DNA of 64,000 nucleotides from the NCBI GenBank assembly GCA_019689555.1, contig JADGHE010000001.1:1-64000 (forward strand), given 5' to 3'. Origin of the DNA: Variibacter sp. Its GTDB lineage: Bacteria > Pseudomonadota > Alphaproteobacteria > Rhizobiales > Xanthobacteraceae. The stretch's first letter is position 1. Each line of letters begins with the position of its first letter. Below, piece after piece: positions 50,966 to 62,392 of the stretch. The translations under genes were made by a program, and so were the position numbers. Below the pieces are notes generated by a model, which saw only the letters and a program-made list of their open reading frames with translations, had not been told where the DNA came from and ran no database searches.

Positions 50966-51517
50966 CTACCGCGGGGCGCGCTTGGCGAGGATGCGCTGCA
51001 GCGTGCGGCGATGCATGTTGAGCCGGCGCGCCGTCTCCGAGACGTTGCGTCCGCACAGCTCGTAGATGCGCTGGATGTGCTCCCAGCGCACGCGGTCGGC
51101 CGACATCGGGTTTTCCGGCGGCTGCGGGCTCTTCCCGTCCGCCGCGAGCAGCGCCGCGACCACGTCGTCGGCGTCGGCGGGCTTGGCGAGATAGTCGACC
51201 GCGCCGCGCTTCACGGCGTTCACCGCGGTGGCGATGTTGCCGTAGCCCGTGAGGATGATGGCGCGCGAATCCGGCCGCCGCCGCTTCAGCGCCGAGACGA
51301 CGTCGAGCCCGTTGCCGTCGCCGAGCCGCATGTCGACCACCGCGAAGGCGGGCGGCGCGCTTTCCACCTGCAACAGGCCGTCGGCCACGGATTCCGCGGT
51401 CGTCACCACGAAGCCGCGCGCTTCCATGGCCCGCGCCAGGCGCGAGAGGAACGACTTGTCGTCCTCGACGATGAGGAGCGAGCGGTCCGGGGGCAGTTCG
51501 GGGGATGCGTCGGCCAT
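50966..51517 (-). CDS. regA: Response regulator RegA/ActR
   Basis: The 183-residue regulator has an N-terminal receiver domain with VEDDKSF, the phosphorylated Asp in [13 protein letters not shown], and ILTGYG; and a C-terminal Fis-type helix-turn-helix [28 protein letters not shown], which is nearly invariant in the alphaproteobacterial RegA/ActR/PrrA family. It controls redox-responsive genes for respiration, carbon and nitrogen fixation. ATG 51517 ([10 protein letters not shown]) is chosen; the longer frame is a continuation past the regB stop. It follows regB with a 50-base gap on the same strand, forming the regBA operon. Confidence 0.95.
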
Positions 51518-51567
51518 CGCAGATCTCGACTTCAAGGCCTCTAAGAGTAATCGACAAAGCCGTCGGC

Positions 51568-52899
51568 TCAAGGGGTGGCGGGGCCGGCGCTCTGCGCCGC
51601 GGCCTCGAAGTCGGCGCGGTCCCAGCGCACGCGCACCACCGCGCCATGCTCCGGCGCCGTGCGGTTGGCGAAGGCCAGCGTCGCGCCGGAGCGCTCCAGG
51701 AGCGTCTTGGCGATGAAGAAGCCGAGGCCGAGGCCGGTCGGCTCGTCCTCCGCGCCGATCCGGCGCGCGCCGCGCGTCGTCAGATACGGCTCACCGAGCC
51801 GGTCCATCACCTCGGGCGGGAAGCCCGGGCCGTCGTCGGCGATCGTCACCGCCACCTCCCGCGGGTTCCAGCGCACCGCGATCTCGACCCGGGATTCGGC
51901 GAAGTCGACCGCGTTCTCCACCAGGTTGCCGAGCCCGTAGAGCAGCGGCGGATGCCGGCGCGCGATCGGCTCGTCGGCGCGATCGTCCGGCAGCATGATG
52001 TCGATCTCGACGCCGAAATTGCGGTGCGGCGCCACGACCTCCTCGATCAGCGCCGACAGCGGCGCGCGGTCGAATGGCTCGTTGGTCGGCGACAGTTCGG
52101 TGAGCTTGCCGAGAATGTCGCGGCAGCGCTGCGCCTGCTCGCGCAGGAGGCGGATGTCGTCCGCGTGGGGGGCGTCCTTCGGCAGCGCGCGCTCCAGCTC
52201 CTTGGCGATCACCGCGATGGTCGACAGCGGGGTCGCGAGTTCGTGGGCGGCCGCGGCCGCAAGGCCGTCGAGCTGCGACAGGTGCTGCTCCCGGGCGAGC
52301 ACCAGTTCCGTCGCCGCGAGCGCGTCCGCCAGGCGGCGCGCCCCCTCGGCGATCTGCCACGCATAGACGCCGATATAGCCGAGCGCGAGCAGGATGCAGA
52401 GCCAGATGCCGAGCATGTAGAGCGGCGGCAAAACCAGCGGCTCTTCGCTCGCCCAGGGCAGCGGCTCATGGACGAAGAGCAGCACCGTCGCCCAGGCGAC
52501 CGCCAAGGCGCCCAGCATCAGCGTATGGCGCGGCGGCAGCGCCATGGCCGAAACGAGCACCGGCCCGAGGAACAGGAAGGCAAACGGGTTCTGCAACCCC
52601 CCGGTGAGGTAGAGCAGCAGCCCCAGCTCGGTGACGTCGAAGGCCAGCACCCAGGCGGCGAGGGCGGGGCCGATGCGCGGGGCCATGCGGTCGCGCAGCA
52701 TCAGCGCCACGTTGACCCAGGCGGAGACCGCGATCACGGCGAGGCACGGCCACAGCGGAAGCTCGAAATCGAGCCCGAAGCGCACGATCAGCACGGCGCC
52801 GGCCTGGCCGACGACCGCGAGCCAGCGCAGGCGCACCAACGTGTCGAGCCGCACATATTGCTGCGCGTCGTGGTGCTGTTTCAGGGGCCTCGTCAGCAT
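51568..52899 (-). CDS. regB: Redox-sensing histidine kinase RegB/ActS
   Basis: The 443-residue membrane kinase has six membrane helices in the first 180 residues. The heptapeptide GGLQNPF (100-106) is the ubiquinone-binding motif of RegB, and the H-box [16 protein letters not shown] contains the phosphorylated His (about 219). The redox-active cysteine seems to be in [10 protein letters not shown] (about 259), close to Cys265 of Rhodobacter RegB. The catalytic ATPase domain has [17 protein letters not shown] and [13 protein letters not shown]. It signals to RegA. The N-terminal [21 protein letters not shown] is a normal start at 52899. Confidence 0.94.
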
Positions 52900-53051
52900 C
52901 GCGGGCCAGTGTACCGGCTAAACGGCGCCCGGGATATCTGCCGCGAGCCCGCGGCAGGCGAGGGCGGACCTGTCGTTTGCTCGGCGCCTCGGCGCCGCGC
53001 AAGCGGAAGGATGAAGGGTGATCCTGCGTCACTTCGCCCTGGCCTTCACGG

Positions 53052-53134
53052 CTTGATGCGGCGCGCCGCCCTCCCAACATTTCGGGCGCTTCGGGCGGGC
53101 GCGCGGCGCGTCGCGACCGCCCGTCGTTGGAGGG
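53052..53134 (+). promoter_or_regulatory. htpX leader: heat-shock-like promoter or structured 5' leader
   Basis: Two alternative readings exist. First, CTTGATG (53052-53058) and CCCAACAT (53073-53080), 14 bases apart, resemble an RpoH promoter. Second, CCCTCCCAAC (53069-53078) can pair with GTTGGAGGG (53126-53134), which contains the ribosome binding site of htpX, as nine pairs with one bulged C; an inner stem CGGGCGG/CCGCCCG (53092-53098 with 53117-53123) would support it. The second reading would be a thermometer-like structure. They are mutually exclusive if transcription starts near 53087. Confidence 0.45.
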
Positions 53135-53139
53135 TTCCG

Positions 53140-54075
53140 ATGAATTTCCTGCGTACCGCGATCCTGCTGGCCGGGCTGACGGGCCTGTTCATGGCCGTGG
53201 GATTCGCCATCGGCGGCCAGAACGGCATGATCATTGCGCTCCTGGTCGCGGCCGGCATGAACTTCTTCGCCTACTGGAACGCCGACCGCATGGTCCTGGC
53301 GATGACCAACGCGCAGGAGGTCGACGAGACGACCGCGCCGGAATTCGTCGGGCTGGTGCGGGAGCTTGCGCAGCGCGCCGGCCTGCCGATGCCGCGCGTC
53401 TATATCATTGACGAGGACCAGCCGAACGCCTTCGCCACCGGCCGCAATCCGGAAAACGCGGCGGTCGCCGCGAGCACCGGCCTGCTGCGGACGCTGACGC
53501 GCGAGGAGGTCGCGGGCGTGATGGCGCACGAGCTCGCCCACATCAGGAACCGCGACACGTTGACGATGACCATCACGGCCACCATCGCGGGCGCGATCTC
53601 GATGCTCGGCCAGTTCGGCATGGTCTTCGGCGGCAACCGCGACAACAACAGCGGCGGGCTCGGCGTCGTCGGCACGCTGGCGATGATCGTGCTCGCCCCG
53701 CTCGCCGCCATGCTGGTGCAGCTCGCGATCAGCCGCACGCGCGAATATGCGGCCGACCGCATGGGCGCGCAGATCTGCGGCAATCCGCTGTGGCTCGCCT
53801 CCGCGCTCGAGAAGATTTCGAGCGCCGCCCATGTGATCGAGAATCAGACGGCGGAAGCCAATCCCGCGACCGCGCATCTGTTCATCGTCAACCCGCTCTC
53901 GGGCGCGCGCATGGACAATCTGTTCTCCACCCATCCGGCGACCGAGAACCGCATCGCCGCCCTGCAGGCGCTGGCGCAGGAGATGGGCGTCTACGGCTAC
54001 GGCGCGCCGCGTGCGGCCGGGTGGGGTGGTGCCGGGCCGTGGGGGGCCGGGCGCCGGCCCGGACCCTGGGGCTGA
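53140..54075 (+). CDS. htpX: Membrane zinc protease HtpX
   Basis: The 311-residue inner membrane protease of the M48B family degrades misfolded membrane proteins after heat or envelope stress. It has two N-terminal membrane helices ([20 protein letters not shown] and [16 protein letters not shown]), the zinc motif HELAH (130-134), a membrane segment around [11 protein letters not shown], and the third zinc ligand region [12 protein letters not shown]. The C-terminal tail is Gly/Trp/Pro-rich ([17 protein letters not shown]), a low-complexity end. ATG 53140 follows GGAGGG with 6 bases spacing. It precedes rsmB by about 110 bases. Confidence 0.95.
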
Positions 54076-62248: not shown

Positions 62249-62352
62249 CGGGTTCAATGGAGGCGGGGCTAGCCCGCCATCAGCTGGCGTCGGGGCTGCC
62301 CCCGCGCTTTAGCTGCATTTGTTAAGCGCCCGCAAGCTGCTCGCTCAAATCG

Positions 62353-62392
62353 GCGCTGAAAGCCGTCTAGACGCTCTTTTCAGCGCTGTCAA
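62353..62392 (-). promoter_or_regulatory. Promoter and nested operator-like palindromes upstream of ssuA
   Basis: On the minus strand TTGACA (62392-62387) and TAGACG (62369-62364) are 17 bases apart, about 155 bases before the ssuA start. Just downstream of the -35 lies an inverted repeat, GCGCTGAAA (62353-62361) and TTTCAGCGC (62378-62386), which encloses a perfect 10-bp palindrome CGTCTAGACG (62364-62373). The elements cover the spacer and the -10 region, as expected for a repressor site. No regulator gene is adjacent. Confidence 0.55.

Follow-up and report, generated by a model that had tools for sequence, protein, structure and literature searches.

A predicted RpoH promoter before htpX in Variibacter sp. 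overlaps the bases of a proposed RNA thermometer

The htpX locus and its upstream region

The window analysed here is the whole stretch of 64,000 nucleotides (G000:C94:1-64000), taken from an assembly of 3.3 Mb in 108 contigs. It contains htpX, which encodes the zinc metalloprotease HtpX and begins with an ATG codon at 53140 (Table 1). Among the named loci, the closest HtpX proteins were found in Xanthobacteraceae and Bradyrhizobiaceae MAGs, at 75-76% identity. A redox two-component system of the RegA/RegB type is divergent from htpX, and the adjoining of ActS and htpX was found in the window genome only (1 of 110 htpX loci). On its downstream side htpX is followed by an rsmB-like gene, for which the top NCBIfam score falls short of the cut-off. 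A gene for the RpoH sigma factor is present in the genome (L003 1345-2244; TIGR02392, 386 bits against a cut-off of 323.1). The window also holds a SAM_alpha riboswitch aptamer at 62290-62366 on the minus strand (39.1 bits against a gathering score of 36).

The bases which a preliminary description had singled out upstream of htpX were all found in place. They include CTTGATG, separated by 14 bases from CCCAACAT, and the two words CCCTCCCAAC and GTTGGAGGG with which a thermometer had been proposed.

Table 1. Coordinates of htpX, its upstream elements and the divergent genes in the window
Feature	Position	Strand	Basis or remark
actR and actS (RegA/RegB-type redox two-component system)	50966-52899	-	Divergent from htpX
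-35 element CTTGATG, predicted RpoH promoter of htpX	53052-53058	+	Top htpX hit of the groES/dnaK/clpB model (300 bases scanned)
Spacer of 14 bases as modelled, htpX promoter	53059-53072	+	Spacer learned from the training set, 14 (or 13)
CCCTCCCAAC, proposed 5' arm of a thermometer	53069-53078
CCCAACAT	53073-53080
Predicted -10 element CCCAACATT	53073-53081	+	Promoter models; variant in relatives; overlaps CCCTCCCAAC
Expected htpX transcription start	53086-53088	+	Usual promoter geometry and position of the -10 element
Predicted short htpX 5' leader	53086-53139	+	Fold no better than shuffles (z -0.01 from 53086)
GTTGGAGGG	53126-53134		Includes GGAGG of htpX from 53129
GGAGG ribosome binding site of htpX	53129-53133	+	Letters
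htpX, zinc metalloprotease HtpX, 311 aa	53140-54075	+	NCBIfam NF002363, 525.8 bits against a cut-off of 422

A heat-shock promoter site and its conservation

A two-block position-weight model of heat-shock promoters was built from 83 upstream sequences of the window genome and its relatives (groES 30, dnaK 29, clpB 24), with no htpX sequence in the training set. Thirty loci each had been taken for the three genes, and one dnaK and six clpB loci were dropped as their start was not found. The model learned CTTG and, after a spacer of 13-14, a C-rich -10 similar to CCTATAT. Within the 300 bases ahead of htpX, its top site was CTTGATG-N14-CCCAACATT at 53052, with a score of 12.1, and this is the very RpoH -10 match behind CTTGATG with a 14-base spacer that had been described earlier. 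In the window genome the sites of groES (CTTGAGG-N14-TCCTATGTC, score 23.2) and dnaK (CTTGCGG-N14-CCCTATATG, score 25.9) score higher; the top site of clpB also has a spacer of 14 and scores 15.0, and all three belong to the training set. A score of 12.1 was reached in 2.8% of 850 intervals of 300 bases from the 64-kb window. It was also reached in 1.04% of 2992 control intervals, each 140 bases long and taken at the same loci, and it lies under the 99% control level. Against shuffles of the 140-base htpX upstream, the promoter site has a p value of 0.02. By itself, the score is modest evidence for a promoter, a 1-3% event.

The RpoH1 consensus, to which the motif learned by the model comes close, is given as CTTGAA-N15-16-CCTATAT, quoted from Barnett 2012, in an excerpt of PMC4843759. 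Set against it, the htpX site CTTGAT-N16-CCAACAT agrees at 5 of 6 positions in the -35 and at 5 of 7 in the -10, where two positions deviate; a CTTG-type -35 and a -10 rich in C are combined in it at the spacing of RpoH sites. Plain matching to a consensus was set aside as a line of evidence, since CTTGNNN-N(10-16)-CCNCATNT gave 24 matches genome-wide and its reversed control 23. A heat-shock-like site, CTTGATT-N14-CCCCATTT (score 15.7), was also observed about 200 bases before the ORF of an RpoD-like sigma factor (L138 1501-1529; G000:C103:24118-24146).

The RpoH promoter reading for htpX rests mainly on conservation of the site in relatives. The comparison covered the best 30 htpX loci of 61 genomes together with 80 named loci, 110 loci in all. 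With the groES/dnaK/clpB model, the htpX upstreams of 26 of 29 family and order relatives lie above the 95% control level and 19 of 29 above the 99% level, the sites standing 58-127 bases ahead of the htpX start codon; three of the 29 (L027, L029, L031) have no significant promoter site. Among the named loci, only 31 of 80 have a site at shuffle p <= 0.05, the 80 including L038, a repeat of L009, and the rest are mostly Rhizobiaceae. This repeat is likewise included in the duplex and ActS-neighbour counts and excluded from the dyad and 7-base-complement counts. Most Rhizobiaceae htpX upstreams were seen to carry another conserved element, ATTGAAA...ACCAAATCATA or similar (e.g. L061, L067, L093), at almost the same distance, and it scores poorly with the groES/dnaK/clpB model.

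A second model was made from the htpX sites of 24 relatives, with the window genome excluded; L027, L037, L029 and L031 (the last two having no site) and L025 (spacer 17) were left out. With this model, the top-scoring start among the 128000 of the two strands is position 53052, at 17.9 bits, and the runner-up reaches 15.0. The information in the 24-site alignment sits in the -35 CTTG, which is invariant, and in the -10 columns, and the remaining flanks are near background. The -10 variant CCAACAT also stands before htpX in L020, L023 and L035.

Taken on these sequence comparisons, the htpX upstream is very probably an ordinary RpoH (heat-shock sigma factor) promoter. The preliminary description had offered this as one of two alternatives, and it is supported by the independent promoter model, by conservation and by a published finding in Sinorhizobium meliloti, where the gene was RpoH1-dependent after an acid shift (excerpt of PMC2976971). 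In Caulobacter, htpX was raised 8.09-fold together with rpoH under iron limitation, and a possible RpoH response was suggested by the authors (excerpt of PMC3751524). RpoH-RNA polymerase would bind CTTGATG and CCCAACAT before htpX, and transcription would begin at the expected start, so that the leader would be about 52-54 bases long. Misfolded protein would raise the level of active RpoH and htpX would be induced, RpoH dependence and heat induction being presumed for this organism. Heat control of htpX would follow from the promoter reading alone.

The same bases could also serve a different sigma factor, either housekeeping or ECF, whose promoter has a chance likeness to RpoH sites. CTTG is indeed contained in the -35 of the alphaproteobacterial housekeeping promoter, given as cTTGAc-N16-cnATAA in an excerpt of PMC4167512. 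However, the C-rich start of the -10 at a fixed distance is a feature in common with the dnaK and groES sites, and a scan of 52880-53200 with an E. coli-type consensus found no sigma-70-like match. A different sigma factor is regarded as improbable.

Leader folding and the proposed RNA thermometer

The other alternative of the preliminary description was an RNA thermometer, in which the mRNA would start upstream of 53069 and pairing of CCCTCCCAAC with GTTGGAGGG would hide the ribosome binding site when cool and open on heating. The pairing is possible as described, with nine pairs, one bulged C and an energy of -11.7 kcal/mol. If both words are transcribed, most base pairs of this helix are modelled with probabilities near 0.62, 0.54 and 0.48 at 30, 37 and 42 C, and the arm-to-SD duplex in the window is somewhat better than in shuffles (z -1.8). 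The predicted change in pairing from 30 to 42 C is, however, small. The fold of 53052-53160 comes to -52.5, compared with -50.1 in shuffled sequences (z -0.66), and was equalled by 54 of 200 shuffles; the top fold does not contain the CCCTCCCAAC/GTTGGAGGG helix, which costs 0.7 kcal/mol when forced. The inner 7-bp stem, which had been held to support a long hairpin, does occur in the predicted fold as CGGGCGG/CCGCCCG (one strand at or close to 53092-53098, the other reaching as far as 53122), but the long helix itself is missing from the top fold. Besides a GC-rich stem reaching to 53122, the predicted leader has a small hairpin at about 53124-53143 that takes in the htpX start codon; this hairpin was considered as a thermal switch and rejected, being stable in the model at 30, 37 and 42 C.

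The relatives speak against a masked site as well. In the 58 of 110 loci having a significant promoter site, the duplex of the spacer/-10 region with the last 20 bases has a mean z of -0.14, and z lies below -1.64 in 7 of the 58, the window (-1.80) included. Over relatives, the start region has a mean openness of +0.29 z, which is the direction opposite to that of a masked site. An exact 7-base complement is present at 11 of 109 loci, while reversed words gave 5 of 109. An SD pairing which is both above chance and kept in relatives was thus not found.

Known thermometer classes were also looked for. In FourU thermometers a run of four U is paired with the SD, and no UUUU (TTTT in the DNA) is present within 53052-53139. 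The mark of ROSE elements is a U(U/C)GCU motif paired to the SD in the last hairpin (excerpt of PMC3669281), and neither TTGCT nor TCGCT occurs in the same interval. No thermometer match was obtained with Rfam at gathering or permissive thresholds, and the titles found by a literature search for an htpX RNA thermometer concern no such thermometer.

The position of the 5' arm decides between the two alternatives. CCCTCCCAAC shares bases with the -10 of the promoter that has the better support, and the expected start is downstream of this arm, so the arm would be absent from that transcript; the sigma-70-like scan mentioned above, with its E. coli-type consensus, found no upstream promoter for a longer one. 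Because the arm at 53069-53078 falls partly within the -10 and partly just ahead of it, the thermometer and the RpoH promoter are mutually exclusive for one transcript. With the arm placed so, a fold close to that of shuffles and a pairing that is not kept, the thermometer is judged very unlikely and this part of the preliminary description is given up. The two-way ambiguity is thereby settled, as the bases that look like one arm of a thermometer coincide in part with a -10.

Finally, the site at 53052 might be unused and htpX transcribed from elsewhere, which would agree with the 1-3% frequency of the window's score alone but is next to incredible for a site that is conserved before htpX in relatives and ranks first of 128000 with a model from which the window's own sequence was excluded.

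A GC-rich dyad and comparison with known systems

In 12 of 49 non-Rhizobiaceae relatives, the 150 bases ahead of htpX contain a GC-rich dyad of the pattern GCGRC-N4..6-GYCGC, against a shuffle mean of 1.64 and maximum of 5, and in 2 of 83 groES, dnaK and clpB upstreams; the pattern was chosen after inspection of the sequences, and these counts are exploratory. Six of the same 49 htpX loci also have a dyad further up, between -300 and -150. In several relatives the dyad ends exactly 10 bases before CTTG, and the form GCGACGC..GCCGC(A) about 10 bases before CTTG (e.g. L044, L045, L032, L033, L025) is possibly an activator site. In the window the dyad is missing upstream of the htpX -35, and the leader contains something close to it, in inverted orientation, at 53103-53114. 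An origin from the divergent actS was ruled out, ActS being beside htpX only in the window genome, and so was a dispersed repeat, since none of 37 genomes has more than 2 copies.

The RegA/RegR box has the form GNGRC-N5-GNCGC, and the htpX dyad resembles it. In part of this order, htpX might then receive two inputs, one from RpoH and one from a putative regulator, perhaps ActR/RegR-like, binding the GCGACGC..GCCGC dyad some 10 bases ahead of the -35. This proposal is speculative and is considered rather unlikely.

The masking of a ribosome binding site proposed for the stress gene htpX recalls the ROSE-type thermometers of rhizobial small heat-shock genes. Unlike these, the htpX leader lacks both a U(U/C)GCU motif and an Rfam match, its pairing is not conserved, and the 5' arm lies outside the expected transcript. 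The predicted RpoH promoter, in turn, is like those of S. meliloti RpoH1 and alphaproteobacterial RpoH (sigma-32), as far as these are described in the excerpts cited, in its CTTG -35 and C-rich -10, and its spacing matches groES and dnaK of the window genome. It is unlike the RpoH1 consensus, as quoted, in having CCAACAT as its -10 in place of CCTATAT, a variant which recurs in a few relatives. The gain is modest: htpX joins the predicted targets of RpoH in a lineage that has been little studied, and its -10 differs at two bases in a way that recurs. The likeness to S. meliloti extends to the gene itself, as htpX belongs to the RpoH1-dependent set there, according to the excerpt of PMC2976971.
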